From contig NZ_LAVL01000034.1 of the NCBI RefSeq assembly GCF_001083785.1, positions 1 to 64,000 of the forward strand: DNA of 64,000 bases, in the 5' to 3' direction. Position 1 is the first letter of the stretch; each line of letters opens with the position of its first letter. Below the pieces are notes generated by a model. The model was given only the letters and a program-made list of their open reading frames with translations. It did no database searches and had not been told where the DNA came from. The stretch is from Nonomuraea sp. SBT364. Its GTDB lineage: Bacteria; Actinomycetota; Actinomycetes; Streptosporangiales; Streptosporangiaceae. Shown piece after piece: positions 6,324 to 39,784 of the stretch. The position numbers were made by a program, and so were the translations under genes.

Positions 6324-6324
6324 G

Positions 6325-8260: not shown

Positions 8261-8724
8261 TCGGGATCGACGGGATCAAGAAGATCATCCCGCACCGCTT
8301 CCCGATCCTCCTGCTGGACCGGGTGCTCGACGTCTCGCCGGGCGAGAGTTTGGTCGCGGTGAAGGCCGTCACGGGCACGGAGCCCTGCTACGAGCGGATC
8401 GGCGACCAGGAGGGCCCCGGCGCCTACCACTACCCCTGGCCGCTGCTGCTGGAGTCCTGGGCGCAGGCCGCGGCGCTGCTGGCGTTGTGGGAGTCGCCCA
8501 CCCCCGACGTGCTCACCGGTGACGTGGTGCTGGCGGGCGGCATGCGCAACGTGCGCTTCCACCATCCCGTGCTGCCGGGCCAGGTGATCGAGCACCGCGT
8601 ACGCATGGTCCGCAAGGTCGGCGAGAACGCCATCATGGAGGGCGAGTCGCTGGTCGGGCCGGTCGTCGTGCAGGAGATGGGAACCATGATCGAGACGACT
8701 CGGCCGATCGGGGTGCTGGCATGA
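8257..8724 (+). CDS. FabZ-like 3-hydroxyacyl-ACP dehydratase (hotdog protein 2)
   Basis: A 155-aa hotdog protein. The N-terminus reads IIPHRFPILLLDRV, the FabZ signature. The catalytic region reads GAYHYPWPLLLESWAQAA where FabZ has GHFPGxPIMPGVLxxEAMAQ. The His and the Glu are still present, but the PG...PGV segment is shortened and altered. It may share catalysis with the preceding 108-aa hotdog protein, each supplying what the other lacks. Tail residues VLPGQVIEHRV and VGENAIMEGES fit the family. It is translationally coupled on both sides. Confidence 0.75.
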   Translation: MIGIDGIKKIIPHRFPILLLDRVLDVSPGESLVAVKAVTGTEPCYERIGDQEGPGAYHYPWPLLLESWAQAAALLALWESPTPDVLTGDVVLAGGMRNVRFHHPVLPGQVIEHRVRMVRKVGENAIMEGESLVGPVVVQEMGTMIETTRPIGVLA

Positions 8725-9452: not shown

Positions 9453-10093
9453 AGTTCTACTTCAACCTCCGCAGTCCCTACTCCTGGCTGACCGTGCACG
9501 ACCTGCTCGCCCGCCATCCCGGCCTGGCGCGCCGGCTGGAGTGGATCCCGTTCTGGGACCCGGAGGAGGCCACGCTGCGCGAGCTCGACGCGGCGGGCGG
9601 CCGGTTCGGCTACACGGCCATGTCCAAGGCCAAGCACCTGTACATCCTCCAGGACGTGCGGAGGCTGGCCAGGGCTCGGGGCCTGGAGCCGCGCTGGCCG
9701 CTGGACCGCGGCCCCCGATGGGAGGTGCCCCACCTCGCCTACCTGATCGCGGCCGATCACGGGGCCGGGCAGGAGTTCGCGGTGCGGGCCGGCGAACTGC
9801 GCTGGCAGCAGGGGGCCGACATCTGCGATCCGCAGGTCGTCGCCGAGCTCGGGCGTTCGCTCGGGCTCGACGAGGCCGGGCTGATCGCCGCGGCGGACGA
9901 CCCCAAGCTGCGCGAACGGGGGATCGACGCGCTGCGGTCGGCCGATCGCGACGGCGTCTTCGGAGTGCCCTTCCTCGTCCACGGGCGGGAGAAGTTCTGG
10001 GGACTGGACCGGCTGGACAGCTTCGCCGAGTCGGCCGGCGAGCCGGTGGCGGGCGGATACCCGCCGGAAGATCACCCAGGTGGCTGTGGCTGA
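9449..10093 (+). CDS. DsbA-family protein of the 2-hydroxychromene-2-carboxylate isomerase type
   Basis: A 214-aa thioredoxin-fold/helical protein beginning FYFNLRSPYSWL. The CxxC of disulfide oxidoreductases is replaced by SPYSW, the mark of HCCA isomerase and kappa-GST-like enzymes. A cis-Pro segment FGVPFLVHGREKFWGLDRL is visible near the C-terminus. In clusters for cinnamoyl or polyene lipids, DsbA-like proteins act as double-bond isomerases on ACP-bound polyenes. A similar E/Z isomerisation of the acyl chain is inferred here. The start is a GTG in the fabG stop overlap. It has no signal peptide, so it is cytoplasmic and not a periplasmic oxidase. Confidence 0.72.
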   Translation: MKFYFNLRSPYSWLTVHDLLARHPGLARRLEWIPFWDPEEATLRELDAAGGRFGYTAMSKAKHLYILQDVRRLARARGLEPRWPLDRGPRWEVPHLAYLIAADHGAGQEFAVRAGELRWQQGADICDPQVVAELGRSLGLDEAGLIAAADDPKLRERGIDALRSADRDGVFGVPFLVHGREKFWGLDRLDSFAESAGEPVAGGYPPEDHPGGCG

Positions 10094-13347: not shown

Positions 13348-13576
13348 TCACATCCGCCTTTGGCTGCGCGAGCGGGTCGCCTTCTACGTGGAGAGGACGC
13401 CCGAGGAGATCGATCCCGACGCCAAGCTCGTCGAGGTGGGGCTGGACTCTGTCTTCGCCATGAGCCTGAGCGGCGACATCGAGGACGAGTTCGGGCTGGT
13501 CGTGGAGCCGACGGTGGCGTGGGACCACCCGACCGTCAACGCCCTGGCCGATCACCTCCACGCGGAAGTCGCCTGA
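13337..13576 (+). CDS. Acyl carrier protein for lipo-initiation
   Basis: A 79-aa ACP with VGLDSVFAM, the pantetheinylated serine being residue 38. It begins with IRLWLRERVAFYVER, typical of FAAL-partner ACPs. Placed directly between the FAAL/ACAD pair and the free C domain, it should receive the acyl-AMP product and present the (possibly desaturated) chain to the C domain. Both ends overlap neighbouring genes, so FAAL, flavoprotein, ACP and C domain form one coupled cassette. Confidence 0.9.
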   Translation: MTLDHIRLWLRERVAFYVERTPEEIDPDAKLVEVGLDSVFAMSLSGDIEDEFGLVVEPTVAWDHPTVNALADHLHAEVA

Positions 13577-14913
13577 TGGAGTTGTCGATCGGCCAGCAGG
13601 CCCTGTGGTTCCTCTACCGCCTGGCACCGGAGAGCACGGCCTACCTGATCACCGTCGCGCTGCGGGTCTACGACGTGCTGGACCTCGATCGGCTGCGCGG
13701 GGCCACCGCGGCGGTCATGGCCCGGCATGAGCTGCTGCGGTCGGTCTTCGACGAGGTCGACGGCGTGCCCCGGCGCTCGCCGGCCGACCTGCCGCCGCCG
13801 CTCACGGTCGTCGACCTGGGCCCGGTGGACGAGGACGCCTTGCGTGCCGGGGCGGCGCGGGCCGCCGGGCAGCCGTTCGACCTCGGCGAGGGGGCGTTCA
13901 GGGTCACGCTGGTGCGCGGCGGCGCCGGTGACGCGGTGCTGCTGGTGACGGCGCACCACATCGTCAGCGACGCGATGTCGCAGTGGATGATCCTGCGCGA
14001 CCTGCTGTGGGCCTACGAGCAGGACGAGCCCGGCTGGCCGGTGATCACGCGGACCTTCGACGACTACGTACGGCATGAGCGCGAGTCGCTGGAATCGCCG
14101 CGGCGCGGACGGCTGGAGCGCTACTGGCGTGGTGTCTGCGAGGGCGCCGAGCCCGCGGGCCTGCCGGCTGACCGGACCCGTTCAGCCGGGTCGTTCCGGG
14201 GGGCCGCGGTCACCCTGGTGTGGCCGGAGAGCACCGGGGCGCGCCTGATCGACCAGGCCCGGAAGCTGGGGGTGACGCCCTTCGCCGTCGTGGTCGCCGC
14301 GCTCCAGGCGGCGCTCCACCGGCGCGGCGCGAGCGGCGACTTCCTCATCGGCTGCCCCGTCAGCACCCGCTTCGCCGCCCGGACCCGCGACGTCGTCGGC
14401 TGCTTCGCCAACACGGTGCCGCTCCGGGCCAGGCTGACGCCGGGGATCACGCTGGGGGAGGCCGCCGTCGCCGCGCACCGCGAACTGGTGGCGGCGACGG
14501 CGCACGGAGAGTTTCCGTCGGCCCTCATCAGGGAGCTGTCACCCGGTCGCGGGCTGCCCTATCACCTGGCCGTCAATCTGCTGTCCATGGACGCGATGGA
14601 CCCGCCGCTGCCGCTGGCGGCGGACGGCTCGATCGAGGGCCCGCCGACGACCTATCGCGGGATGCGGATCGCCGTTCTCGACCTCGCGCAGATGGAGGGC
14701 CAGTTCGACCTGATGGTGGATGTCCGCAGGGCCGGAACGCTGTTCACCGCCGTGGTCAAGTATGACGCCGACCTGTTCGACCAGCTCACGATCGAGCGCT
14801 TCACCAGCCGGCTTCGTCAGGTGGTGGAGTCGGGCCCTGACGCGCCGATCGGCCGGGTGCCCAGGGTGGACGAGAGTGAGGTGGCGCGATTACTCGCCTT
14901 CGGTGAAGCATGA
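13576..14913 (+). CDS. Free-standing NRPS condensation domain (probable starter C domain)
   Basis: A 445-aa single C domain, the size of one domain with no A or T partner. Core motifs: IGQQALWFLYRL (C1), RHELLRSVF (C2), AHHIVSDAMS with the HHxxxD catalytic motif at about residue 127 (C3), and GCFANTVPLR (C5). NRPS-1 starts with an A domain and lacks its own N-terminal C domain. This protein is therefore the logical catalyst for N-acylating the first amino acid with the chain from the preceding ACP. A TTA codon at 14890-14892 lies near its end. It is the last gene of the coupled acyl operon. Confidence 0.85.
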   Translation: MELSIGQQALWFLYRLAPESTAYLITVALRVYDVLDLDRLRGATAAVMARHELLRSVFDEVDGVPRRSPADLPPPLTVVDLGPVDEDALRAGAARAAGQPFDLGEGAFRVTLVRGGAGDAVLLVTAHHIVSDAMSQWMILRDLLWAYEQDEPGWPVITRTFDDYVRHERESLESPRRGRLERYWRGVCEGAEPAGLPADRTRSAGSFRGAAVTLVWPESTGARLIDQARKLGVTPFAVVVAALQAALHRRGASGDFLIGCPVSTRFAARTRDVVGCFANTVPLRARLTPGITLGEAAVAAHRELVAATAHGEFPSALIRELSPGRGLPYHLAVNLLSMDAMDPPLPLAADGSIEGPPTTYRGMRIAVLDLAQMEGQFDLMVDVRRAGTLFTAVVKYDADLFDQLTIERFTSRLRQVVESGPDAPIGRVPRVDESEVARLLAFGEA

Positions 14914-15076
14914 GTCATGCTCATTGTTATTGGCTCACAATCGCCCTCCGCCACCCCTAATAGAATATTGTTCCCCCCTTTTGGTTCCTGGGGTCTGTCC
15001 CGAATGATGGGTATAGTTGCGTTTGGCCCGATCGGGCGCAAGGTCCCATCCTTGTGAGCCTGCAAGGGGAGTTTGT
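14914..15076 (+). promoter_or_regulatory. AT-rich intergenic region before FAAL-2 (probable promoter)
   Basis: These 163 bp are clearly more AT-rich than the flanking genes (TAATAGAATATTG near 14,958). They separate the coupled acyl operon from the FAAL-2 gene. One copy of the cluster heptamer (GGTATAG at 15010-15016) is present, but without the second copy 11 bp away that the other sites show. A Shine-Dalgarno-like AAGGGGA at 15064-15070 precedes the ATG at 15077. No convincing -35/-10 pair was found. Confidence 0.4.
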
Positions 15077-16807
15077 ATGGGGGAAATATCTGTTTTCGGG
15101 GCGATACTTCGTCACGTCGAGGAAAGACCGCACGCTGACGCGGTCATATTCAAGGGGGACGGCGAAACTCGAATCGGCTACCTGGATCTCCACCTGGCCG
15201 CGAGGGAAGTGGCGTCTTGGTTACAGACCGTATGCAAACCGGGGGACCGAGTCCTGCTCTGCTACCCGACGGGTATCGAGTACGTGCGCTCCTTCCTGGC
15301 CTGCCTCTACGCGGACGTCGTCCCGGTGCCGTTGCCGCTCCCCTCACACGCGGAGCACCATCTCAGCACGCAGACCGGCATCGCGCTTGACGCCGACGCC
15401 CATCTCGTCCTCACCGACACGGCCCACGCCGACGCCATCCATGCCTGGCTGAACCACGACGACCTGGGCACCTACGCCTGCGTCGCCACCGACGGCGTCG
15501 TCTACGAGGACCCCGCCGACTGGGTCGAACCCCTGCGGTCCGGCGACGACCCGGCACTGCTCCACTACACCAGCGGCCTGGCCGGTGAACCCGTCGGCAT
15601 CCCGCTGTCGCACACCAACCTCCTGCACAACGTGGAGTCCCTGATCGAGGCGTGTGACCTGCGTCCGGGCGTGCGCACGGGCGGCTGGCTGCCCCTCCAC
15701 CACGGGCTCGGGCTGTTCACCCTGCTGCTGGCGCCGCTGCTCTCGGGGGGCACGGCGGTGCTCGTCCCGCCGCACACGTTCTGCGCCGACCCGGTCGCGT
15801 GGCTGCGCCTGCTCGACGACTACCGGGTGGAGGTGAGCGCGGCCCCGGGATTCGGGTTCGACGAGTGCCTGCGCGAGATCACCCACGAGCAGTGCGCGAC
15901 GCTGGACCTGTCCCGATTACGCCACCTGCTGGTGCTGGAGATGACCGGCCTGCCCTCGATCGAACCGGACAACCTCGTCGAGCTCGCACACCGCCTGCGC
16001 CACGCCGGGCTGCGGTCCGAGGCGCTGCGCACCGCCTTCTGCCTTCCCGAGGCCACGATGATCGCCTCGGTGGGATCGGCGGGACAGGTCCTGCGGGCCC
16101 CGCGATTCGACACGCGCGCGCTGGACAAGAGCCTCATGCTGCCCGGCACCGACGGGCCGCGACTCGCCGGCCTCGGCGAACCCGGCGACCAGGACCTTCT
16201 GATCGTCGACCCGTTCACGGGCGTCCCGGTGACGGAGGGGACCGTCGGGGAGATCTGGGTGCGGGGACCGCATGTCGCCGCCGGCTACTGGCACGAGGAC
16301 CGGCTCAGCGCCGAACGATTCGACCAGATCACCGCGACGGGGGAGAAGGGGTTCGTGCGCAGCGGCACCCTGGGGGCCACGGTGGACGGCGAACTCTACG
16401 TGGCGGGCGCGTCACGTGACCTGATCCTGCATCGGGGCCGTCCGCTGCACCTCGGCCGGGTGGAACGCAGCCTTCTGGACCTCGGCTCCATCGTCGCCTG
16501 CACCGCCTTTCCCGCGCTGGACACGCCCGAGGAGATCATCGTGGTCGCCCAGCCGGACGGCGCGGACGAGGGCGGGCTGGTACGCGCCGTCCGTGCCCGG
16601 CTCGCCCTGCGCTTCGGGCTGCAGCGGGTCGGTGTCGTCCTGGTCAGGCCCGGTCAGTTCCCGGCGGCCCCGGACGGCGGGGTCAACCGGCAGCTCGTGC
16701 GGGAACTACTCAGAGCCAACGCCCTGGACGTGCTCGACGGCGATGTCCCGAGCGGCCTCGACCCGCCGGCGACCGCCCCCGGATTTCCGCGACCGGGGAG
16801 CCGCTGA
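15077..16807 (+). CDS. FAAL-like protein with degenerate adenylation motifs (FAAL-2)
   Basis: A 576-aa protein alignable to FAAL-1 along its whole length, but with its catalytic motifs eroded. The P-loop YTSGSTSDAKG becomes YTSGLAGEPVG. The A8 RTGDLG becomes RSGTLG, losing the ribose-binding Asp. GRIKDL becomes GASRDL, GRNLYPHDLE becomes GRPLHLGRVE, and the A10 SGKIRR becomes DGGVNR, losing the catalytic Lys. The fold-bearing segments (SWLPLHHDMGL-like GGWLPLHHGLGL, GEIWVRGPHVAAGYW) remain, and the frame is open with no stop or frameshift. It is therefore probably a maintained non-adenylating protein and not a decaying gene. TTA codons occur at 15221-15223 and 15917-15919. Its role is unknown; a scaffold, chaperone or acyl-gatekeeper is conceivable. 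Confidence 0.8.
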   Translation: MGEISVFGAILRHVEERPHADAVIFKGDGETRIGYLDLHLAAREVASWLQTVCKPGDRVLLCYPTGIEYVRSFLACLYADVVPVPLPLPSHAEHHLSTQTGIALDADAHLVLTDTAHADAIHAWLNHDDLGTYACVATDGVVYEDPADWVEPLRSGDDPALLHYTSGLAGEPVGIPLSHTNLLHNVESLIEACDLRPGVRTGGWLPLHHGLGLFTLLLAPLLSGGTAVLVPPHTFCADPVAWLRLLDDYRVEVSAAPGFGFDECLREITHEQCATLDLSRLRHLLVLEMTGLPSIEPDNLVELAHRLRHAGLRSEALRTAFCLPEATMIASVGSAGQVLRAPRFDTRALDKSLMLPGTDGPRLAGLGEPGDQDLLIVDPFTGVPVTEGTVGEIWVRGPHVAAGYWHEDRLSAERFDQITATGEKGFVRSGTLGATVDGELYVAGASRDLILHRGRPLHLGRVERSLLDLGSIVACTAFPALDTPEEIIVVAQPDGADEGGLVRAVRARLALRFGLQRVGVVLVRPGQFPAAPDGGVNRQLVRELLRANALDVLDGDVPSGLDPPATAPGFPRPGSR

Positions 16808-16868: not shown

Positions 16869-16941
16869 CGGCGTGGCCGGATAGTGAGCTGGCTGGTTCT
16901 GGTTGCGGAGCCGGCGCAATTTCATGGACGGAGCCAGCGCT

Positions 16942-17928
16942 GTGCCAATATCCACCACGACTGGAATTCTTTCGGCTATTGGTGGGACGCCGCTCGTCGA
17001 ACTCGAACGGCTCGTCCCGGGACTGTTGGTGTTCGCAAAGCTGGAGAGGTTCAATCCCGGGGGGAGCCTCAAGGACCGCAGTGCGCTCAGCATGCTGAGC
17101 GCCGCCATCGACGCAGGTGATCTCGTTCCCGGGGTCTCCGTCGTGGTGGAGTCCAGTTCGGGCAATCTGGCCATCGGCATGGCGCAGATCTGCCGCTACC
17201 TCGGCCTCAGGTTCATCTGCGTGGTCGATGCCAGGACCACGGAGCAGAACCTGGCGATATTGCGGGCTTTCGGGGCCGAGGTCGAGGTCGTGGAGCTGCC
17301 CGATCCCGGGACCGGGGAGTACCTGCCGCGCCGGATCCAGCGGGTGCGGGAGCTGCTCGACACCATTCCGAACTCCTTCCATCCCAACCAGTACGGCAAT
17401 CTGCTGAACGCGCGGGCGCACTTCCAGACGATGCACGAGATCGTGCGGGCGCTCGACGGCGGGATCGACCACCTGTTCGTCCCCGTGAGCTCGTGCGGCA
17501 CGCTGGTCGGCTGCGCCGACTACGTCGCCGCGCACGACCTGCCCATCAAGATCACGGCGGTGGACGCGATCGGCAGCATGATCTTCGAAGGGCAGCGGCC
17601 GGCACCCCGGCTGCTGCCGGGCCACGGCGCGGCCATCCGCCCGGCCCTCTTCCGCGAGGGCGCGGCCGATCGCGTGGTCCACGTGTCCGACCTCGACTGC
17701 GTGGTGGGGTGCCGAAGGCTGACGGAGCGCGAGGCCATCCTCGCCGGGGCGTCGTCCGGTGCGATCGTCTCCGCGCTGACCGCGACCCAGCACGAGATCG
17801 CCCCCGGGGCCACCTGCGTACTGCTGCTCCCGGACGGCGGAGATCGCTATCTGGACACTATCTACTCCGACGAGTGGGTGCGCCGCACCTTCGGCGAGGT
17901 CTCGCACCTGTGGAAAGAAGGGATCTGA
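16942..17928 (+). CDS. sbnA: SbnA-like PLP enzyme: N-(2-amino-2-carboxyethyl)-L-glutamate synthase
   Basis: About 328 aa, cysteine-synthase fold. KLERFNPGGSLKDRSA carries the PLP-binding Lys. ESSSGNLAIGMA, FICVVDARTTEQN, VDAIGSMIFEGQ and LLPDGGDRYLDTIYSDEW track staphyloferrin-pathway SbnA closely. SbnA condenses O-phosphoserine with glutamate to ACEGA, which SbnB oxidatively cleaves to L-2,3-diaminopropionate (Dap). The GTG at 16942 was chosen because CGGAG lies 8 nt upstream. ATG 16924 and TTG 16903 are in-frame alternatives with poorer ribosome sites. The gene opens the unit preceded by the GATATAG repeat and is followed 2 nt later by sbnB. Confidence 0.9.
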   Translation: MPISTTTGILSAIGGTPLVELERLVPGLLVFAKLERFNPGGSLKDRSALSMLSAAIDAGDLVPGVSVVVESSSGNLAIGMAQICRYLGLRFICVVDARTTEQNLAILRAFGAEVEVVELPDPGTGEYLPRRIQRVRELLDTIPNSFHPNQYGNLLNARAHFQTMHEIVRALDGGIDHLFVPVSSCGTLVGCADYVAAHDLPIKITAVDAIGSMIFEGQRPAPRLLPGHGAAIRPALFREGAADRVVHVSDLDCVVGCRRLTEREAILAGASSGAIVSALTATQHEIAPGATCVLLLPDGGDRYLDTIYSDEWVRRTFGEVSHLWKEGI

Positions 17929-17930
17929 CC

Positions 17931-18911
17931 ATGCTGGTCATCCGACACGACGAGGTGCGCGACATCCTGCGGGGTGCCGAGCAGGCCGTGCTGGAGCTCG
18001 TGCGCGACACCTATCGCGAGCACGACGCCGGCGAGACGGTGGTGCCCCACTCGACGTTCCTGCGCTTCCCCGGGGAGAGCGCCAACCGCATCATCGGCCT
18101 GCCCGCGTTCGTGGGAGGGGAGCAGCCGATCGCCGGGATCAAGTGGGTGGCCTCCTTCCCCGGCAACCTCGGCAGGGGGCTGCCGCGGGCCAGCGCCACC
18201 ATCGTGCTGAACTCCATGGAGACCGGCAGGCCGCTGGCCCTGATGGAGGGCGCGCAGATCTCCGCCGCGCGCACGGCCGCCGCCACGGCGGTCGCCGCCC
18301 AGACCCTCGCCGGTCCGGACCCGGTGCGGTCCATCTCCATGATCGGATGCGGCCTGATCAACTTCGAGGTGCTGCGGTTCCTGCCCGGTCTCTCGGCGCT
18401 GACCCTCTTCGACGTGTCACGGGCCCGCGCCGAGGCCTTCGGCGCACGCGCACGGCAGGCGCTGCCCGCACTCGACGTGCGGATCGCCGCCACCTCCGCG
18501 GAAGCCGTCGCGGCGGCCGGCGTGCTGTCGCTGGCGACCACCGCCATCGAACCGCACATGACCCTGGACGGGGCCCGGCCGGGAGCGGTGGTGCTGCACA
18601 TCTCGCTGCGCGACCTCACCCCGGAGACCGTCCTGGCCGCGCGCAACGTCGTCGACGACGTCGACCACGTACTGCGCGAGCGCACCTCGGTGCACCTGGC
18701 GGAGCTGGCCACCGGCGACCGCGCCTTCGTCCACGCCACACTCGGCGGACTCCTGCGCGGGACCACCACGCTGCCCGGCGGCGGCTCATCGATCATCTTC
18801 TCCCCCTTCGGCCTCGGCGCGCTGGACCTGGCACTGGCCAGGTACGTGCTCGAACAGGCTCTCGCCCGGAACTCCGGGCTGGCCGTCGAGGCCTTCCAGC
18901 AACCCGTATGA
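17931..18911 (+). CDS. sbnB: SbnB-like N-(2-amino-2-carboxyethyl)-L-glutamate dehydrogenase
   Basis: A 326-aa member of the ornithine cyclodeaminase/mu-crystallin family, with GIKWVASFPGN, ALMEGAQISAARTAA and the NAD-binding IGCGLINFEVL. Next to an sbnA homologue it should oxidise ACEGA to 2-oxoglutarate plus L-2,3-diaminopropionate. The start follows the sbnA stop by 2 nt (AAGAAGGG ribosome site). Dap can be an NRPS substrate itself or the precursor of ureidoalanine. The carbamoyltransferase at 23,804 argues for the latter. Confidence 0.9.
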   Translation: MLVIRHDEVRDILRGAEQAVLELVRDTYREHDAGETVVPHSTFLRFPGESANRIIGLPAFVGGEQPIAGIKWVASFPGNLGRGLPRASATIVLNSMETGRPLALMEGAQISAARTAAATAVAAQTLAGPDPVRSISMIGCGLINFEVLRFLPGLSALTLFDVSRARAEAFGARARQALPALDVRIAATSAEAVAAAGVLSLATTAIEPHMTLDGARPGAVVLHISLRDLTPETVLAARNVVDDVDHVLRERTSVHLAELATGDRAFVHATLGGLLRGTTTLPGGGSSIIFSPFGLGALDLALARYVLEQALARNSGLAVEAFQQPV

Positions 18912-18924
18912 AGGAGCAGCCACC

Positions 18925-19098
18925 ATGAGTGACCGGTACCTGGTAGTGCTCAACGACGAAGAGCAGTACTCCATCTGGTGGGCGGACCGAGACCTGCCGG
19001 CCGGATGGCGCGCCGAAGGCACGGGGGGCACCAAGGACGAGTGCCTGCGGCACATCGAGCAGGTCTGGACCGACATGCGACCCCGGAGCCTGCGGTGA
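18925..19098 (+). CDS. mbtH: Short MbtH-like protein 1
   Basis: 57 codons. It begins MSDRYLVVLNDEEQYSIWWA and continues to VWTDMRPRSL, the MbtH family signature (NxExQxSxW, then WTDMRP). MbtH proteins bind A domains and are often needed for their solubility and activity. The gene is compact and lacks the usual C-terminal tail. A strong AAGGAGC lies 8 nt upstream of the ATG. Its TGA overlaps the GTG start of NRPS-1 by 4 nt, so it is co-translated with that synthetase. It is a close paralogue of the protein at 28,467. Confidence 0.93.
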   Translation: MSDRYLVVLNDEEQYSIWWADRDLPAGWRAEGTGGTKDECLRHIEQVWTDMRPRSLR

Positions 19099-22000
19099 AG
19101 GACGGCTTCCTCGGCGACCTGGTGTGGCGGCAGGCCGCGGCGACCCCCGACGCCGTCGCCGTCGTGGACGGGGAAAGGACCCTGACCTACGCCCAGCTCA
19201 CCCGCCGGGCCGCTCGCCTCGCGCACCTGCTGGGCGAGTGGGGCATCGGCCGGGGTGACGTCGTCTGCCTCAACCTGCCGCGCGGCGCCGACTTCATCGT
19301 GGCCCTCCTCGGCATCTGGCGCGGCGGCGCCGCCTACCTGCCGACGGATCCCGAGCACCCGCGCGAGCGCCGGGATCGCATCCTGCGGGACGCCCGCCCC
19401 GCCATCGTGCTCACGCCGGAGCTGCTGCGCTCGCTGCCCACCCCGGAGGCCGGCCAGGTCCCGGTGGCCGGGGCGGACGCGGCGTACGTGATCTACACGT
19501 CGGGTTCGACCGGGCGCCCGAAAGGCGTCGTGGTGACGCACGAGGGCATCGCCAACCGGGTGCTCTGGACGACACGGACCCATGAGCTGGGCCCGTACGA
19601 CAGGCTGTTGCACAAGACGTCGGTCACGTTCGACGCCGCCGGTTGGGAGATGATCGCTCCTTTGCTGAGCGGCGGCACGGTGGTGATCGCGCCGCCGGGC
19701 GCGGAGCGCGATCCGGCGTCGCTCGTCCGCCTGATGCGCGAGCACGAGATCACGGTGCTCCAGGTGGTCCCCTCGCTGTTGCGTGAGCTGGTGCGTGAGC
19801 CGGGCTGGACCGGCCTGGCCTCGCTGCGGCTGTTGTTCAGCGCCGGCGAGCCGTTGCACGCCGGCCTGGTGCGGGAGGCGGCTCTGCCGTCGATGGCGAT
19901 CTGGAACACCTATGGACCCACCGAGTGCGCCATCGACGTGACCGCTCATCAGGTCGACCCCGATCAGCCCGGGGATTCGGTGCCGATCGGCCGGCCGATC
20001 TCCGGTATGCGCGTGCGGGTGCTGGACGAGGAGGGCGGCCTGGCGCCCATCGGCGTCCCCGGTGAGCTGTGCGCCGGCGGGCCCGGGGTCGGGCGGGGCT
20101 ATCTCGGCATGCCCGCCATGACGGCCGAGCGGTTCGTGCCCGACCCCTATGGCGAGGGCGAGCGGCTCTACCGGACCGGTGATCTCGTGCGCTGGTCCGA
20201 GGACGGCGTCCTGCACTTCATGGGCCGGCTCGACGAGCAGCTCAAGGTCAACGGCGTCAGGGTCGAGCCCGCGGAGATCGAGGCCGTGCTCCAGGGCCAT
20301 CCGGCGGTGGCGGCGGTGGCCGTCGTGGCGTCGGAGGGACGGCTGGTCGCCCACGTCGCGGGCCGGGTCGCCCCCGCCGAGCTGCGGCTCTTCGCCCGCG
20401 ACGTCCTGCCGGACACCCACGTGCCGACCAGGTACGTCCTGCACGACAAGCTGCCCGTGCTGCCCAGCGGCAAGATCGACCGCTCGGCGCTGAAAGCCCC
20501 CGTCGCACCGGCCGCCCACACCCCGCCCAGCACGCCCGCCGAGCATCGCGTCGCCGCCGTGTGGTCCGAACTGCTGGGCGTCGAGCGGATCGGCGCCGAC
20601 GACGACTTCTTCCAGCGCGGTGGCACCTCGCTGCTGCTGACCAAACTCGCCAACCGGCTCGACGTGCCCGTCCCCGACCTGTACGCCGTCTCCACGGTGG
20701 CCGGCCAGGCCGAACTCCTGGACCGGCAGGGCGCCACGGCCGAGCGCGTCGGCCCCGCCGGGCACGCGCGCTCGGCGGAGGTCTCGTACGGCCAGCGCCG
20801 CCTGTGGTTCCTCGACCGGATCCAGCCCGGCAGCCCCGAGTGGGTCGCGCCCCTGTTCGTCAGGCTGGAGAACGCGGACGCCGGCACCGTACGCGCCGCC
20901 CTGAACCGCCTGGCCGAGCGGCACGAGATCCTGCGCACCCGCTACGTCCCGGTGGCCGGCGAGCCCCGGCAGATCATCGACGACCCCGCACCGGTCGAGC
21001 TGAGGGTCGCCGCCGCCGGCGAGGACCCCGCGGCGCTGGTCGCCGGGCAGCTCGCCCGGGGCTTCGACCTGGAACGCGGGCCGGTGTGGCGGGCGATGCT
21101 GGCCGGCGACCTCCTCCTGATCACCATCCACCACATCGCCTGCGACGGCTGGTCCACCGTGGTGCTCGACCGGGAGCTCCGCGCGCTGTGCGCCGGCGCG
21201 GACCTGCCGCCGGTGCCCCTGCAGTACGCCGACTACGCGGCCTGGCAGCGCCGTGCCCTGACCGCCGAGACCCTCGCGGACGACCTCGCCCACTGGCGCG
21301 AGCACCTCGCCGGCGTGCCCGTCCTGGAACTCCCCACGGACCGGCCCCGGCCCGCGCACCGCGACCACCACGGCGCCATGGTCACGTTCGACATCCCGGC
21401 GGAGCTGGGGAACGCCCTGGCCGCCTGGGGACGTGAGCGCGGCGCGACCCTGACCGCCGTGCTGATGACCGCGTGGGCGATGCTGCTCTCCCGGCACAGC
21501 GGGCAGCGGGACTTCGCCGTCGGCACCCCGGTCGCCGGGCGCGAGCGCGCCGAGTTCGGCGACGTGGTGGGATTCTTCCTCAACGCCCTCGCCCTGCGCA
21601 TGGACCTGACCGGCAACCCCACCTTCGAGGAGGCGGTGGCACGCGTCAACGCCGCCTGCCGCGCCGGTTTCGCACGCCAGCGCCTGCCCTTCGACCGGCT
21701 GGTGGAAGAGCTCCAGCCCGGGCGCGATCTCACCAGGACCCCGATCTACCAGGTCAGCTTCGACCTGCACGAGGCCGGCCACACCGACACCGCGCTGGAG
21801 GCGGCGGACGCCTCGGTCATGGCCGAGGCGTGGCTGATCGCCAAGACCGACCTCAGCCTGCTCGCGCAGCGTCGGCCGGACGGCTCGGTCCTGGCGTCCC
21901 TCGAGTACGCCACGGCGCTGTTCGACCGGGCCACGGCCACGACCATGGCCGCGCGCTTCCTCAAGCTCCTGCGCGACGTCGCGGCGCAACCCCGGCTCCG

Positions 22001-23807
22001 GCTGTCCGCCGTCGACCTGGCCGACTTCGAGCATCCGGCGCGGCTCGGCGGCCTGCCCGCCCGCTGCGTGCACGAGGTGTTCCAGGAGCAGGCGGCACGC
22101 ACCCCCGGCGCCCCGGCCGTGGACGGCATGACGTACGGCGAGCTGAACGCGCGGGCCAACCATCTCGCCCGGCACCTGCGCGCGCGGGGAGCGGGCCCCG
22201 GCAAGCCGGTCGGCGTCTGCCTGGAGCACGGGCCGGATCTGATCATCACCCTGCTGGCCGTGCTGAAGTCCGGCGCCGCCTACCTGCCGCTGGATCCCGA
22301 CCAGCCGGCGGAACGGCTCGCGTTCATGATCGAGGACGCCGGCGCCGCGCTCGTGGTGACCACCACCGGCCTCGCGGGCAAGGTCACGGAACCGGCGGTG
22401 CTGCTCGACACGCTCGCGCCGGGCTCCGCGCCGGACGACCCCGCGGCGGCGGCCGCACCGGACGACGTCGTGTACGTGATCTACACCTCGGGCTCCACCG
22501 GACGTCCCAAGGGCGTCGAGGTGACGCATGCCAATGTGCTGCGCCTGTTCACGGCGACCGAGGCGGCCTTCTCCTTCGGTCCCGGCGACGTGTGGACGCT
22601 GTTCCACTCCTACGCCTTCGACTTCTCCGTCTGGGAGATCTGGGGGGCGCTGCTGCACGGCGGCCGCCTCGTCGTCGTCCCCAGGGACGTGGTGCGCGAC
22701 CCGGGCCGCTTCGTCGACCTGCTGCGCGAGGAGCGGGTCACCGTGCTGAACCAGACGCCGTCCGCCTTCCGGCAGCTCGCCGCCTTCGCCGCCGAGGACG
22801 ACCCCCGGCTCACGGGGCTCGCGCTGCGCGCGGTGGTGTTCGGCGGCGAGAGGCTCGACATGGGCGAGCTGACCCCGTGGATCCGCCGCTTCGGCACCGG
22901 GCGTCCGCGACTGATCAACATGTACGGCATCACGGAGACCACCGTCCACACCACCCTCCACGAGATCCGTCCCGGCGACCACGGCAGCCCGATCGGCGTC
23001 CCGCTCGCCGACCTCAGGGTGCACCTGCTGGACGAGTACGGGGGAGTGGCGCCCGTCGGCGTGCCCGGCGAGATCTACGTCGAGGGGCCGGGCGTGGCAC
23101 GCGGCTACCTGAACCGGCCGGCGCTGACGGCGGAGAGGTTCCTGCCCGCGGCCGGCGGCGGACGCCTCTACCGCAGCGGCGACCTGGCCAGGCGGAACGC
23201 CGACGGCAGCCTGGAGTTCCTCGGGCGTGCCGACGACCAGGTGAAGATCCGCGGCTACCGCATCGAACTCGGCGAGATCCAGGCGAGCCTGCTCGGCCAC
23301 CCCAGCGTCCGCGACGCGGTGGTCGTGGTGCGGGACCAGGCTCTCGTCGGCTACGTCGAACCGGCGGGCGACAGCATCGACGTGGGTGAGCTCAAGACGG
23401 CACTGGGCCGGGCGCTGCCCGACTACATGGTGCCGGCCGCCATCATCGCCCTGGACCGCATTCCCCTCACGGTCAACGGCAAGCTCGACCGGGCCGCCCT
23501 GCCGGCGCCCGGACGTGAGGAGACGGGCGCGGCGGGGTTCGTCGCGCCGCGCAACGCCGTGGAGACGCTGCTGGCCGAGATCTGGCAGGAGGTTCTCGGC
23601 ATCGACAAGGTGGGCGCGCGGGACGACTTCTTCGCCCTGGGCGGCAACTCGCTCCAGGTGCTGAAGATGATCGCGCGGGTCCAGGAGGAGCTCGACCTGG
23701 AACTCGGCGCCCGTCAGGTGTTCGAGCAATCCGAACTGGCAATGCTGGCCGGTCACATCGAGGCCGTCTTGCTGGCTGAGGACTTCCGTGCGGAGGAAAC
23801 GGCATGA
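19095..23807 (+). CDS. NRPS-1: A-T-C-A-T, first two modules
   Basis: A 1570-aa synthetase starting at a GTG in the mbtH stop. Order: A1 (P-loop about residue 134), T1 (GGTSLL, Ser512), C with HHIACDGW (about 679), A2 (P-loop about 1130), T2 (GGNSLQ, Ser1519). There is no N-terminal C domain, epimerase or TE. The pocket residues I read by alignment to GrsA are D-A-W-Q-F-A-T-I-D-K for A1, close to a known glutamine code (DAWQFGLIDK), and D-F-W-N-V-G-M-V-H-K for A2, essentially the threonine code. A1 is a plausible site for ureidoalanine, a glutamine isostere. The free C domain at 13,576 would acylate residue 1. The synthetase is followed directly by the carbamoyltransferase. Confidence 0.9.
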   Translation: MKDGFLGDLVWRQAAATPDAVAVVDGERTLTYAQLTRRAARLAHLLGEWGIGRGDVVCLNLPRGADFIVALLGIWRGGAAYLPTDPEHPRERRDRILRDARPAIVLTPELLRSLPTPEAGQVPVAGADAAYVIYTSGSTGRPKGVVVTHEGIANRVLWTTRTHELGPYDRLLHKTSVTFDAAGWEMIAPLLSGGTVVIAPPGAERDPASLVRLMREHEITVLQVVPSLLRELVREPGWTGLASLRLLFSAGEPLHAGLVREAALPSMAIWNTYGPTECAIDVTAHQVDPDQPGDSVPIGRPISGMRVRVLDEEGGLAPIGVPGELCAGGPGVGRGYLGMPAMTAERFVPDPYGEGERLYRTGDLVRWSEDGVLHFMGRLDEQLKVNGVRVEPAEIEAVLQGHPAVAAVAVVASEGRLVAHVAGRVAPAELRLFARDVLPDTHVPTRYVLHDKLPVLPSGKIDRSALKAPVAPAAHTPPSTPAEHRVAAVWSELLGVERIGADDDFFQRGGTSLLLTKLANRLDVPVPDLYAVSTVAGQAELLDRQGATAERVGPAGHARSAEVSYGQRRLWFLDRIQPGSPEWVAPLFVRLENADAGTVRAALNRLAERHEILRTRYVPVAGEPRQIIDDPAPVELRVAAAGEDPAALVAGQLARGFDLERGPVWRAMLAGDLLLITIHHIACDGWSTVVLDRELRALCAGADLPPVPLQYADYAAWQRRALTAETLADDLAHWREHLAGVPVLELPTDRPRPAHRDHHGAMVTFDIPAELGNALAAWGRERGATLTAVLMTAWAMLLSRHSGQRDFAVGTPVAGRERAEFGDVVGFFLNALALRMDLTGNPTFEEAVARVNAACRAGFARQRLPFDRLVEELQPGRDLTRTPIYQVSFDLHEAGHTDTALEAADASVMAEAWLIAKTDLSLLAQRRPDGSVLASLEYATALFDRATATTMAARFLKLLRDVAAQPRLRLSAVDLADFEHPARLGGLPARCVHEVFQEQAARTPGAPAVDGMTYGELNARANHLARHLRARGAGPGKPVGVCLEHGPDLIITLLAVLKSGAAYLPLDPDQPAERLAFMIEDAGAALVVTTTGLAGKVTEPAVLLDTLAPGSAPDDPAAAAAPDDVVYVIYTSGSTGRPKGVEVTHANVLRLFTATEAAFSFGPGDVWTLFHSYAFDFSVWEIWGALLHGGRLVVVPRDVVRDPGRFVDLLREERVTVLNQTPSAFRQLAAFAAEDDPRLTGLALRAVVFGGERLDMGELTPWIRRFGTGRPRLINMYGITETTVHTTLHEIRPGDHGSPIGVPLADLRVHLLDEYGGVAPVGVPGEIYVEGPGVARGYLNRPALTAERFLPAAGGGRLYRSGDLARRNADGSLEFLGRADDQVKIRGYRIELGEIQASLLGHPSVRDAVVVVRDQALVGYVEPAGDSIDVGELKTALGRALPDYMVPAAIIALDRIPLTVNGKLDRAALPAPGREETGAAGFVAPRNAVETLLAEIWQEVLGIDKVGARDDFFALGGNSLQVLKMIARVQEELDLELGARQVFEQSELAMLAGHIEAVLLAEDFRAEETA

Positions 23808-24703
23808 CGCCCCATCACCTGATCTCGATCGACGACCTCTCGGACGAGGCTCTGCGCCATCTCGTCGGCCGCGGCCTGGACTACCGCAACAGCGTCGGCG
23901 CGACGTCGCACCCGCTGGCCGACCAGGTCGTCGGCATCTACTTCAGCAAGACGTCCACCAGGACGCGGACCGCCTTCACCTCCGGAGCGCTGCGCCTGGG
24001 GGCGCGCACGATCGCCTTCGGGCCCCACGACCTGCAGACCAACACCGGCGAGTCGATCGAGGACACGGCCAGGGTGCTGAACCGGATGCTGGACGTCTTC
24101 GTCATGCGCACGGCGGGCGATCCGGCCGAGATGCGGATGTTCGCCCAGGACCGGCGCATGTCGGTGATCAACGCGATGAGCGCGACCGAGCACCCCACCC
24201 AGGCGCTGACCGACCTCACCACGCTGAAGTGGCGCTTCGGCGCCATCGAGGGGCTGCGCATCCTGTACGTGGGCGAAGGCAACAACACCGCCGCCGCCCT
24301 CGCCCTTGCGCTGAGCAGGTACGAGTCGGTGAGCCTCGAACTGCGCACGCCGCCGGGCTACGGGCTGTCCGAGGACGTGCTCGACAGGGTCGATCCCAAG
24401 GTGGTCGTCGAGCGTCACGACATGCGGGACCTGCCGGAGGCCGCGGACGTCATCTACACCACCCGCTGGCAGACCACGGGGACCGACAAGCCCGATCCGA
24501 ACTGGCGGGACGTCTTCGCGCCCTTCCAGGTGACCGGGCGGTTGTGGCGGTCGAGCCCGGAGGCGGTGTTCATGCACGACCTGCCCGCCCACCGTGGCGA
24601 GGAGGTCACCGCCGAGGTCATCGACGGCCCGCACAGCATCGTCTTCGACCAGGCGGAGAACAAGCTGCACAGCGCCATGGCTGTGCTCGAGTGGTGCCGA
24701 TGA
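23804..24703 (+). CDS. Carbamoyltransferase of the OTCase family with altered amino-acid site (candidate diaminopropionate carbamoyltransferase)
   Basis: A 299-aa protein with the carbamoyl-phosphate motifs STRTRT and EHPTQ, so carbamoyl transfer is likely. The ornithine-side motifs differ: HCLP of OTCases reads HDLP (MHDLPAHRGEEV), and the SMG loop is replaced by TRWQTTGTDK. Another amine is therefore expected. With sbnA and sbnB in the same unit, the candidate substrate is L-2,3-diaminopropionate (giving 3-ureidoalanine) or a Dap residue on a T domain. Viomycin and capreomycin clusters also combine SbnA/B-type enzymes with an OTC homologue for beta-ureidodehydroalanine. It has ATGA overlaps with NRPS-1 and with the next gene. 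Confidence 0.85.
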   Translation: MTPHHLISIDDLSDEALRHLVGRGLDYRNSVGATSHPLADQVVGIYFSKTSTRTRTAFTSGALRLGARTIAFGPHDLQTNTGESIEDTARVLNRMLDVFVMRTAGDPAEMRMFAQDRRMSVINAMSATEHPTQALTDLTTLKWRFGAIEGLRILYVGEGNNTAAALALALSRYESVSLELRTPPGYGLSEDVLDRVDPKVVVERHDMRDLPEAADVIYTTRWQTTGTDKPDPNWRDVFAPFQVTGRLWRSSPEAVFMHDLPAHRGEEVTAEVIDGPHSIVFDQAENKLHSAMAVLEWCR

Positions 24704-26370
24704 CCGCACTGGAAGAGCTGCTCGGGGACCCGTGGAACCCGGCGAACCCGGCCGGGTTCGCCGCCGTCCTGGCCGCCGACGAGCAGGGCGAGCTGCTGAC
24801 CGCGGGGGAGTCGATCCTCGACGAGGTACGGCTGGGCGACCAGTTCGTCCCGGCTTCGCTCGGCGGCGCCTTCGTCGGCGTGGACGGACTGGTCCAGGCG
24901 ATGAGAGCGGTCTTCAGGCGCGATCCCTCGCTGGGCATCGGCTACGGGGTCACGAGCTTCATCGCCGCGGTGCCGGTGTGGACGGCCGGCGACGCCGGTC
25001 AGCGCAAATGGCTCGCCGGGCAGCTGCTCGGCGGGGAACGGGCGGCGGCGGCCTTCACCGAGCTGGCCCACGGCGCCGACTTCTCGCGCATGTCGATGCG
25101 CGCGGAGACGCGCGGCGACAGCCTGGTGATGACGGGCGCCAAGCAGCTCATCAACAACATCGGCAGAGCGCGCGCCGTCACGCTGTTCGCGCGGACCTGG
25201 GCCGAGCCGGGCAGCCGCAGCCACTCGATGCTGCTGGTCGACCTGGCCGGCGTCCGCGACTATCGCATCCTGCCCCGCCACCACACGTCGGGGCTACGGG
25301 CGACGCCGCTGGCCGGCGTGGAGTTCAACGGCAGCCGCGTCCCCCTGGACGCGATGCTCGGCGCCCCGGGCAGCGGGCTGGAGACCGCCCTGCGCGCCTT
25401 CCAGGTGACCCGGATCGCGCTCCCCGCCATCGCGATCGGCGCGCTGGACACCCAGCTGCGGCTGGCGCTGAGCTTCGCCGGCGAGCGGGTCCTGTACGGG
25501 CGGCCGGTGGCGGACATCCCGGTGGCCCGGGACTGCCTGGTGGGCGTCTTCGCCGACCTGCTGGTCTGCGACGCGTTCAGCGCGGTGGCGGCGCGCGCGC
25601 TGCACCTGCTCCCCGAGCAGACCAGTGTGCTGGCGGCGGCCTGCAAGTACGTGGTGTGCGCCTTGCTCGACTCGGCTTCCTACGACCTGTTCACCGTCCT
25701 CGGCGCGCGTTCGTACCTCCGCGAGGGGCCTTACGGCGTGTTCCAGAAGTACTTCAGGGATCTCGCCGTGGCCGCGCTCGCTCATTCGAGCAGCGCCGCG
25801 TGCCTGGCGACGATCATCCCGCAGCTGCCCCGGCTGGCGCGGCGAAGCTGGCTGCGTGCCGATCCCGGGCCGGAGGAGCTGTTCAGCCTCGGCTCCCCGC
25901 TGCCCGAGCTCGACTTCGACCGGCTGGTGCCGGACGCGAAGGGCCGCGAGAGCCTGTCCGCCGCGCTGTCCCGGGTGCAGGACGCCGAACTGCGGACCTT
26001 CTTCCTCGGCCGCCTGGCCGAGCTGCGGACCCGGTGCCAGGACCTGCCGCCGGGCGAACGGACGGTGACGGCCTCGGCCGGCACCTTCGCGCTGGCCGAG
26101 GAGTACGCCTTCCTGCTGGCCGCCGCCGCGTGCGCCGGTGTGACTTCAGGGGCGGCTTCTGTGCGGGCCGGCGCGTTCAGCGCCGCCTGGCAGGCGGTCG
26201 CGCTGCGCCGGATCGCCGGACGGCTGGGGGCGCCCGCTCGTCCGGCGGGCGAGGCGGGCAGCGTGATGTTCGCCGAACTGCTTTCCCGGCATGAGGGCTC
26301 ACAGACCTTCGACGTGGTCGCCCGGCAATTGGCGCGGCACGGACGCCGATTCGCGGCCGGTGACCGGTAG
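24700..26370 (+). CDS. Acyl-CoA dehydrogenase-like flavoprotein 2
   Basis: A 556-aa ACAD-fold protein. The FAD region AFTELAHGADFSRM and the beta-domain segment AKQLINNIGRAR are recognisable. At the catalytic-base position (YEGT in medium-chain enzymes, FDGNT in the paralogue at 11,806) it reads AHSSSA, so no acidic base is present there. Two roles are possible. It may partner the first ACAD in desaturating the acyl chain, as two ACADs do in ramoplanin-type clusters. Or it may desaturate the ureidoalanine residue, as an ACAD homologue is proposed to do in the tuberactinomycins. The coupled position after the carbamoyltransferase favours the second, and the sequence kinship favours the first. 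It is the last gene of the sbnA unit. Confidence 0.75.
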   Translation: MTALEELLGDPWNPANPAGFAAVLAADEQGELLTAGESILDEVRLGDQFVPASLGGAFVGVDGLVQAMRAVFRRDPSLGIGYGVTSFIAAVPVWTAGDAGQRKWLAGQLLGGERAAAAFTELAHGADFSRMSMRAETRGDSLVMTGAKQLINNIGRARAVTLFARTWAEPGSRSHSMLLVDLAGVRDYRILPRHHTSGLRATPLAGVEFNGSRVPLDAMLGAPGSGLETALRAFQVTRIALPAIAIGALDTQLRLALSFAGERVLYGRPVADIPVARDCLVGVFADLLVCDAFSAVAARALHLLPEQTSVLAAACKYVVCALLDSASYDLFTVLGARSYLREGPYGVFQKYFRDLAVAALAHSSSAACLATIIPQLPRLARRSWLRADPGPEELFSLGSPLPELDFDRLVPDAKGRESLSAALSRVQDAELRTFFLGRLAELRTRCQDLPPGERTVTASAGTFALAEEYAFLLAAAACAGVTSGAASVRAGAFSAAWQAVALRRIAGRLGAPARPAGEAGSVMFAELLSRHEGSQTFDVVARQLARHGRRFAAGDR

Positions 26371-28791: not shown

Positions 28792-39774
<10,983 letters not shown>

Positions 39775-39784
39775 GAGTCCGCGC

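Follow-up and report, generated by a model that had tools for sequence, protein, structure and literature searches.

A single tightly packed operon of the soil actinomycete Nonomuraea sp. SBT364, at positions 16924-26370 of the window (the whole stretch of 64,000 nucleotides that was analyzed), very probably makes L-3-ureidoalanine (albizziine), with which the adenylation domain A1 would charge the initial carrier protein of a synthetase for a lipopeptide. The operon comprises sbnA, sbnB, an mbtH-like gene, the peptide synthetase gene NRPS-1, a carbamoyltransferase gene and an acyl-CoA dehydrogenase-like gene. The gene families, motifs, A1 code, clade and co-distribution described below are direct observations on the sequences; in particular, the DAWQFATIDK-type code of A1 is confined, among decoded domains, to genomes with an L-2,3-diaminopropionate transcarbamylase (DPTCase). 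DPTCases are known enzymes; no A-domain clade or code dedicated to their product was found in the literature searched.

Operon layout and supply of diaminopropionate

The operon lies on the plus strand and begins with sbnA (16924..17928; alternative GTG start at 16942), which encodes a PLP enzyme for the first step of L-2,3-diaminopropionate (Dap) synthesis, and sbnB (17931..18911), which encodes a dehydrogenase for the second. An earlier note, made from the sequence alone, had identified both genes as such, and this identity holds, since SbnA scored 392.5 bits against TIGR03945 (cut-off 349.95) and SbnB 384.2 bits against TIGR03944 (cut-off 326.9). Both genes thereby pass the NCBIfam equivalog cut-offs for the SbnA/SbnB pathway known from staphyloferrin B and poly-Dap; in contrast to that pathway, Dap is here most likely carbamoylated before use. 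Next comes an mbtH-like gene of 57 aa (18925..19098), named from a reading of its sequence; in several related loci a relative of this gene adjoins sbnA/sbnB.

NRPS-1 (19095..23807) has the organization A1-T-C-A2-T according to Pfam domains and a motif scan, and it opens with an A domain, without an N-terminal C domain. Its start is probably GTG 19095, which is preferred because a longer frame from 18978 overlaps the mbtH-like gene. A1 (19140..20501), a putative ureidoalanine-activating domain as judged by code positions, clade and distribution, is followed by A2 (22098..23510; code DFWNVGMVHK). The carbamoyltransferase gene (23804..24703; Pfam OTCace_N/OTCace and motifs) overlaps the NRPS-1 stop at its 5' end and, at its 3' end, the start of the gene for the acyl-CoA dehydrogenase-like protein ACAD2 (24700..26370; NCBIfam relatives, all below cut-off). 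The gene order in the earlier note (sbnA/sbnB-type genes, NRPS-1, OTCase homologue) and its other sequence statements were all verified. Not described there were the mbtH-like gene within the operon, the coupling of ACAD2 behind the carbamoyltransferase, and operon counterparts, which are present in N. ceibae and [Actinomadura] parvosata subsp. kistnae.

The surroundings show a lipopeptide architecture with fatty-acyl-AMP-ligase-like (FAAL) genes. Upstream lie a FAAL-like gene (15017..16807, plus strand; Pfam AMP-binding, with NCBIfam FAAL models below cut-off), a gene for a free-standing condensation domain with the motif HHIVSDA (13360..14913, plus strand; Pfam Condensation, 188.9 bits), ACAD1 (11806-13347; 35% identical to ACAD2) and a second FAAL-like gene (10104-11813), so named solely on its 38% identity to the 15017-16807 protein. 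Downstream, also on the plus strand, follow NRPS-2 (28792..39774), read from motifs as C-A3-T-C-A4-T-C-A5-T-E with domain order and E assigned by eye, and NRPS-3 (39740..44908), read as C-A6-T-TE with a methyltransferase inserted in A6, the methyltransferase and TE again assigned by eye. The extracted codes are DVWNVAMVHK (A3), DFWNVGMVHK (A4), DAAV-AAVAK (A5) and DAADIGCVD (A6, with the last position beyond the methyltransferase insert). We take DFWNVGMVHK, shared by A2 and A4, to be a Thr-type code and that of A3 to be Thr-like; a PDB search with A6 gave no informative match.

Signature of the carbamoyltransferase

In the operon's carbamoyltransferase, STRTRT begins at residue 51, HPTQ at 130, TRWQTTG at 220 and HDLP at 258. 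The protein has the carbamoyl-phosphate motifs of a DPTCase (STRTR and HPxQ), a 240s loop of the type (T/S)RWQTTG in place of DxxxSMG, and HDLP rather than HCLP, invariant in 26 aligned relatives. These residues agree with the original reading, in which an OTCase homologue keeps STRTRT and HPTQ, lacks the SMG loop and has HDLP for HCLP. TRWQTTG with HDLP is the published signature of DPTCase, the DBTCase loop being TRWQSMG (PMC4581275), and the proposal that the homologue is a Dap enzyme gains support from this match. A 2018 review (PMC6022934) swaps the two loop motifs relative to that 2015 review, which we followed and whose residue table agrees. Features of ornithine carbamoyltransferases are missing: scores against two ornithine models are below cut-off (256.6 bits, cut-off 306; 240.1 bits, cut-off 280.85), and neither DxxxSMG nor HCLP is found. 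The genome has a separate ATCase and OTCase, the latter carrying SMG and HCLP.

The DPTCases of viomycin, capreomycin and zwittermicin A share the family, the carbamoyl-phosphate motifs, TRWQTTG, HDLP and nearby Dap-forming genes, a match drawn from published motifs; the Nonomuraea enzyme differs in that its gene belongs to a lipopeptide operon and is accompanied there by an A domain from a dedicated clade. In the search for a zwittermicin anchor, 348 class genomes around G378 yielded a DPTCase only in G378 itself. In the PDB, 83 sequences match the carbamoyltransferase (E 1e-10), and the best 60 of these are ornithine, putrescine or aspartate enzymes, CAD or PyrB, with no Dap enzyme by annotation among them.

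A first sample comprised 345 genomes of the same order, Nonomuraea sp. SBT364 included, 34 with and 311 without DPTCase. From 10 of the 34, SbnB is missing at E 1e-80, as might be expected if the carbamoyltransferase accepted 2,4-diaminobutyrate (as in padanamide), 2,3-diaminobutyrate or ornithine; such an acceptor is nevertheless very improbable here, given that sbnA and sbnB of the same operon pass their equivalog cut-offs and that the loop is TRWQTTG and not the TRWQSMG of DBTCase. Nine of the ten genomes have SbnA homologues only below cut-off, and eight of the nine carry the A1 code, so that the genes seen do not account for a supply of Dap in them and their acceptor may be a different one. 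The loop version TRWESMG was found in one genome (G290).

The A1 code, its distribution and its lineage

The pocket of A1 reads DAWQFATIDK, as the earlier note had it at all ten positions. The same extraction applied elsewhere gives codes presumably typical of Thr, Ser, Asp and Gly, which serve as a calibration of the code reading. In the main texts of the open-access literature searched, DAWQFATIDK was not found and DAWQF occurred in 3 papers, one of them on indigoidine; 145 PDB sequences match A1 (E 1e-20). The glutamine-activating A domain of indigoidine synthetase has the code DAWQFGLINK (PMC3992020); A1 departs from this published code, equalling it at 7 of 10 positions, including W239, Q278 and F299, and having A, T and D at positions 301, 322 and 331 where the indigoidine synthetase domain has G, L and N.

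Among the 345 genomes of the first sample, all 32 matches to A1 of at least 395 bits were decoded, and 30 have the code or a one-residue variant. All 30 are in DPTCase genomes (28 of 34); no decoded domain of the 311 genomes without DPTCase has the code, their two matches of at least 395 bits being serine-type. Fisher's test gives p 1e-35 for this association, with undecoded genomes counted as code-less and relatedness uncorrected; because the sampled genomes are not independent of one another by descent, p-values make the evidence look stronger than it is. With one weaker match (G126) added, the code is present in 29 and absent from 5 of the 34 DPTCase genomes, and in 22 genomes the code domain shares a contig with the DPTCase gene, at a distance of 3.3-27.5 kb.

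For a second sample, drawn from another order and comprising 255 genomes (51 with DPTCase, 204 without), the looser pattern DA[WLF]QxAT[IV]D was used. Among decoded domains, the pattern occurs in 21 of the 51 DPTCase genomes vs 0 of the 204 others, within 23.9 kb of DPTCase in 19 genomes; at the threshold used, 30 of the 51 are without it. Where the DPTCase is at least 60% identical, the pattern is missing from 12 of 33 genomes, two of which carry DAWQTGTIDK, and five (8 of the 12 were searched) have an A1-like domain with its code unread on the contig of the DPTCase gene, at most 30 kb away. Of 44 named DPTCase genomes searched, 34 showed the pattern and 10 did not. These absences are not exhaustive, as the A-domain searches scored only four (first order) or six (second order) candidates in most genomes, and codes were read in 18 of the 58 genomes that have A1 matches but no DPTCase, the best matches of the other 40 scoring 379.9 bits or less.

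Altogether, 71 distinct A domains fit the code pattern, 47 of them with exact DAWQFATIDK, and 451 stretches of the genome collection encode relatives of the carbamoyltransferase; on these numbers, the observation exceeds chance. How well the code is conserved inside the 71 domains carries no weight here, six of the positions being set by the pattern used to select them. The confinement of the code to DPTCase genomes among decoded domains of two orders supports the earlier proposal that A1 selects ureidoalanine, and would be without reason if A1 activated L-glutamine and ureidoalanine were used elsewhere, a reading that we consider extremely unlikely despite the seven code positions shared with indigoidine synthetase.

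The same proposal is favored by the absence of the A1 code from all 20 sbnB regions that lack a carbamoyltransferase match. In 10 of these 20, a different code, D[IV]WE[LI]TADD (last position read in one), occurs near sbnA. Its domains form a separate clade (support 100), and three clusters (L109 with G348, L151 and G264) contain both codes, from which we infer that two different substrates are probably selected. Two high-scoring A1 relatives from genomes without DPTCase, G257 and G912, have the changed codes DALQLGTVDK and DAWQSGTNEK. These observations make it distinctly unlikely that A1 activates Dap, leaving carrier-bound Dap or the finished peptide to be modified afterwards by the carbamoyltransferase, even though the neighboring genes supply Dap and Dap residues could conceivably be tailored at a late stage. 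Madurastatin was considered as an anchor for a Dap code and set aside, as review passages on it describe Ser, beta-Ala and hydroxy-ornithine, not Dap.

In a quick tree of 106 of the 159 domains, 40 code-pattern domains and the G257 domain form one branch (support 99); the G912 domain was left out. A single clade with a shared code, present among decoded matches in DPTCase genomes only, constitutes an association with the enzyme and not a substrate, and we propose that this clade, common to many actinobacterial clusters, is a dedicated ureidoalanine-activating lineage. Among the nearest other A domains by search score, the serine type predominates (15 of 18 decoded), but this score-based suggestion of a sister group was not adopted, since the tree, which contains no glutamine domain, leaves the sister group of the A1 clade unresolved.

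The similarity of the A1 code to the glutamine code may have arisen by convergence, ureidoalanine being a glutamine isostere. On balance, we lean slightly towards a single A lineage, distinct from the Dap-associated clade and found in several cluster types, that specialized on free L-3-ureidoalanine and whose pocket converged on the glutamine code. The clusters include lipopeptides, larger NRPS clusters with Asp-like codes, and small ones in which an sbnA-sbnB-DPTCase operon is combined with two A domains. If this is true, there would be an A-domain code for ureidoalanine where predictors would be drawn to glutamine, and D[IV]WE[LI]TADD would be a further candidate code, one for Dap that is left unmodified; predictions would be corrected in dozens of actinobacterial clusters (the 71 pattern and 47 exact domains), revealing a large, unrecognized class of ureidoalanine peptides. 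The timing of carbamoylation, on the free amino acid or on the peptide, would become directly testable, and lipopeptides with a glutamine mimic beside the acyl chain would be indicated.

Predicted product and the role of ACAD2

In the pathway that we propose, every substrate, the order of steps and the product are inferred. SbnA and SbnB would form Dap, and the carbamoyltransferase, with carbamoyl phosphate as donor, would carbamoylate free Dap at its beta-amino group, giving L-3-ureidoalanine. A1, with MbtH, would then pick the finished ureidoalanine, neither Dap nor glutamine, by means of DAWQFATIDK; most likely, the free, pre-formed amino acid is loaded as residue 1 of a lipohexapeptide. 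The lone condensation domain and the FAAL/ACP lipid set probably N-acylate this residue in trans, and the predicted product is acyl-Uda-Thr-Thr-Thr-X-(N-methyl)Y, which the TE of NRPS-3 would cyclize or release. The parallel to enamidonin-type lipopeptides drawn in the earlier note could not be sustained. Enamidonin, autucedine and olenamidonin are likewise actinobacterial lipopeptides with 2,3-diaminopropionate, but their backbone is Phe-Dpr-Dpr-Gly with dehydro-beta-alanine, with no ureidoalanine residue described, and the order of codes in the window (DAWQFATIDK, Thr type, Thr-like, Thr type, DAAV-AAVAK, DAADIGCVD) does not correspond to such an assembly line.

For ACAD2, lipid desaturation is more likely than desaturation of ureidoalanine. 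Its gene is translationally coupled to the carbamoyltransferase gene and lies directly behind the carbamoyltransferase gene in G146 as well, and tuberactinomycins contain a beta-ureidodehydroalanine residue; even so, we regard it as unlikely that ACAD2 desaturates ureidoalanine to beta-ureidodehydroalanine, as occurs in viomycin and capreomycin. The G146 cluster has both FAAL genes and ACAD1 upstream, an ACAD2-like gene adjoins an ACAD1-like gene in L140, and a FAAL-like gene is followed by an ACAD1-like gene in G257. Moreover, ACAD relatives are present in only 3 of 35 other carbamoyltransferase regions (G145, G146 and a weak match in G290) and in 2 of 80 loci of another set (L102, identical to G146, and L140), so that most such clusters manage without one nearby. 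A VioJ-like role had been considered for ACAD2 when G146 at first seemed to be without lipid genes, and was rejected once two FAAL-like genes and ACAD1 had been found farther out in G146.

Gene order and the carbamoyltransferase

The window covers positions 1 to 64,000 of a contig that is 69,688 bases long, in a 10 Mb genome. From 16924 to 26370 on the forward strand it encodes, in succession, sbnA, sbnB, mbtH, NRPS-1, a carbamoyltransferase and the acyl-CoA dehydrogenase-like ACAD2 (24700-26370), with four-base overlaps at mbtH/NRPS-1, NRPS-1/carbamoyltransferase and carbamoyltransferase/ACAD2. The earlier note's order of sbnA- and sbnB-type genes, NRPS-1 and then an OTCase homologue was borne out, with mbtH and ACAD2 also in the row. 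The nearest relatives by carbamoyltransferase belong to the same genus, Nonomuraea ceibae (89%) and [Actinomadura] parvosata subsp. kistnae (76%), and both share the sbnA-sbnB-mbtH-NRPS-1-carbamoyltransferase arrangement. The N. ceibae contig stops shortly past the carbamoyltransferase gene, and in the parvosata strain an ACAD2 relative lies directly 3' of it.

The carbamoyltransferase carries both family Pfam domains and scored under the cut-off in all 16 carbamoyltransferase models listed. In a 2015 review (PMC4581275), (T/S)RWQTTG and HDLP mark the L-2,3-diaminopropionate (Dap) transcarbamylase, DPTCase, and TRWQSMG marks the 2,4-diaminobutyrate counterpart, DBTCase. A 2018 review (PMC6022934) has the two loop motifs swapped; the 2015 assignment was used because that paper's residue table matches its own text. 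Both TRWQTTG, at the loop, and HDLP are present in the window's enzyme, confirming the claim that it lacks the ornithine motifs, while the genome's own OTCase (contig C14) keeps SMG and HCLP. As an ATCase is also encoded elsewhere (contig C97), the window's carbamoyltransferase is a third, dedicated enzyme. T219, T220, W222, T224, T225, G226 and HDLP were invariant in all 26 aligned relatives, picked from 36 DPTCase-like places in genomes of the same order; outside the alignment, G124 has HGLP, a second copy in G335 has TRWETTG and HTLP, and a second copy in G290 has TRWESMG. The 46% relative at G290:C1:3016391-3017299 (L078/L079), with TRWESMG and HDLP, resembles the 2,4-diaminobutyrate enzyme described for padanamide. 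DPTCase-like proteins also occur outside actinobacteria, in Chryseolinea serpens and Marininema halotolerans (L158 and L173; 61% and 64% identity), where nearby A domains have other codes; horizontal transfer of these genes is possible.

The A1 code and its occurrence with DPTCase

The pocket of A1, the first A domain of NRPS-1, had been read as D-A-W-Q-F-A-T-I-D-K, and extraction returned the same code. Elsewhere the same extraction returned DFWNVGMVHK, DVWHLSLVDK, DLTKVGHIGK and DILQLGLVWK, which we take to be Thr, Ser, Asp and Gly codes, respectively, and which served as calibration. The description of A1 as near-glutamine also held: seven of ten positions equal those of the indigoidine glutamine code DAWQFGLINK, as given in PMC3992020. 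In the loci read ahead of the second-order sample below, the code pattern was matched by 71 A domains (47 exactly) out of 398 distinct ones with at least 400 aa, a proportion that is not a natural frequency because the loci were gathered via DPTCase and A1 queries. Pairwise identities among the 71 fall to 43%; the constancy of their pattern-fixed positions is no evidence.

Among 345 genomes of the same order, including the window's own, 34 encode a DPTCase-like protein (E 1e-60) and 88 an A1 relative (E 1e-105, four A-domain candidates scored per genome). Every one of the 32 places matching A1 with at least 395 bits was decoded. Thirty have DAWQFATIDK (28), DAWQAATIDK (1) or DAFQFATIDK (1) and lie in 28 genomes, all with DPTCase; the remaining two have serine-type codes and lie in genomes without it. 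G126, a weaker match, has the exact code, so that 29 of the 34 DPTCase genomes possess it (exceptions: G034, G153, G228, G290 and G326). In 22 of the 29, code domain and DPTCase share a contig, with 3.3 to 27.5 kb between them; in seven, all drafts, they are on separate contigs. The code was absent from all 18 genomes decoded among the 58 with an A1 match and no DPTCase, which gave 15 serine-type codes, DVPVYIQVDK (G027), DILQLGLIWK (G301) and DALQLGTVDK (G257); the other 40, undecoded, had best matches of at most 379.9 bits, a range overlapping the G126 score.

A second sample comprised 255 genomes from the order of the DPTCase genome Streptomyces sp. NBC_01549 (G348, counted in), 51 of them with a DPTCase-like protein. 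All 30 A1 matches at E 1e-115 were decoded. D-A-[WLF]-Q-x-A-T-[IV]-D was found in 21 genomes, every one with DPTCase, at most 23.9 kb away in 19, and among these matches in none of the 204 genomes without DPTCase, which yielded DAWQSGTNEK (G912) and serine codes in two others. Two DPTCase genomes gave DAWQTGTIDK and two only serine codes. At this threshold no match with the pattern was obtained in 12 of the 33 genomes whose DPTCase has at least 60% identity, nor in any of the 18 whose DPTCase is more distant. With a laxer threshold, applied to 16 genomes including eight of those 12, undecoded A1-like domains were seen within 30 kb of DPTCase in G827, G839, G849, G915 and G916. The co-distribution p-values ignore genome relatedness.

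The pattern was also read in 34 of 44 further genomes reached via named DPTCase loci, which give no null because they were chosen for their DPTCase. The 34 include G380 (through L178), G354, G358, G359, G362 and G361; it was not found in G355, G356, G360, G366, G368, G369, G372, G376, G378 and G379, and G369 has DASQFAHIDK in a domain outside the A1 clade. Streptomyces sp. SM10, Kitasatospora paracochleata and Actinacidiphila guanduensis have sbnA-like (37-40%), sbnB-like (41-47%) and DPTCase genes in a row, and in Streptomyces sp. Tue 6430 the DPTCase is accompanied by a partial sbnA match; within the 40-80 kb read, only two A domains were found in each of the four, DLPKIAEVGK and DAWQCATIDK.

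sbnB regions without a carbamoyltransferase match

SbnB exceeds its cut-off in 99 of the 345 same-order genomes. We read 20 sbnB regions, 19 from genomes without DPTCase and one (L266) about 33 kb from the DPTCase of G153. None has a carbamoyltransferase match, none the A1 code, and in five no A domain was found. D[IV]WE[LI]TADD, a candidate code for unmodified Dap whose tenth position (K) was read in a single region, lies near sbnA in ten regions (L261-L263, L272-L277, L279). A quick tree built from 106 of the 159 A domains placed all 13 domains with a Dap-associated code in one clade (support 100) and the 40 A1-pattern domains in another (support 99), with the G257 domain as its sole extra member; the tree did not resolve the group nearest to the A1 clade. 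Both codes occur together in clusters G264, L151 and L109/G348, where activation of Dap itself by A1 would require a single cluster to use two distinct codes for Dap.

Two natural controls bear on the proposed activation of ureidoalanine, carbamoylated Dap. The G257 cluster starts much like the operon in the window (sbnA 65%, mbtH, then the A1-clade domain); the genome has only one carbamoyltransferase relative at E 1e-25 (36% identity), and the code is changed to DALQLGTVDK. G912, left out of the tree, has an A1 relative with the changed code DAWQSGTNEK and no DPTCase at E 1e-60. Both go the predicted way, and two cases are few.

Proposed pathway and lipid genes

SbnA and SbnB are described in PMC4668381 as making Dap from phosphoserine and glutamate, and the window's homologues would do likewise. 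Carbamoyl phosphate and Dap would then give ureidoalanine, which A1 with MbtH would activate and a lone C domain with the fatty-acyl-AMP ligase (FAAL)/ACP set would acylate. Thr, a Thr-like residue, Thr, an epimerised residue and an N-methylated residue would follow before TE release, the part past residue 1 being a prediction made only from codes and by-eye reading of domains. Both DPTCase and ureidoalanine residues were known before; the literature searched, the main texts of mostly open-access papers, yielded no dedicated clade of A domains for ureidoalanine with a code close to that of glutamine.

Dap supply poses a problem in ten of the 34 same-order DPTCase genomes, which have no SbnB at E 1e-80 (G003, G005, G034, G041, G058, G080, G126, G194, G195, G199); only G126 has SbnA over the cut-off. 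Eight (G003, G005, G041, G058, G080, G194, G195, G199) have the code without such an SbnA, and there the amino acid could have a separate source or could be some other diamino acid.

Positions 26-10093 hold a lipid-building block. NCBIfam models point to a ketosynthase (fabF and AmcF, scores under the cut-off), a further pair of KS-like genes, a fused AccD-AccA protein whose AccD score is over the cut-off, BCCP and biotin carboxylase. Our own reading adds a thioesterase, an SDR, an ACP, a pair of dehydratases, a ketoreductase and, without an NCBIfam match, a DsbA/HCCA-isomerase-like protein. The block resembles a dedicated supply line of the type II polyketide or fatty acid kind, equipped with an acetyl-CoA carboxylase of its own, and may be cut off because the contig starts at base 1 of the window. 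Between it and sbnA (10104-16807) lie two FAAL-like proteins, the acyl-CoA dehydrogenase-like ACAD1 (11806-13347) and a free-standing condensation domain. ACAD2 was initially read as a counterpart of the tuberactinomycin desaturase, a reading demoted in favour of a lipid role, which is more likely because the wider parvosata region contains two FAAL-like genes and ACAD1, and an ACAD1-like gene adjoins an ACAD2-like one in Micromonospora locus L140. The suggested enamidonin-type parallel was not supported.

In NRPS-2 (28792-39774), the second condensation domain has HHAVMEGW in place of the expected HHxxxDG, a D-to-E change (residues about 1250-1275). A6, the A domain of NRPS-3 (41195-42487), has the code DAADIGCVD and a methyltransferase insert and shares 62% identity with a Streptomyces zagrosensis A domain (L118:14450; DAADVGCADK) in a DPTCase locus. 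Three more DPTCase loci, L123, L153 and L167, hold similar codes.
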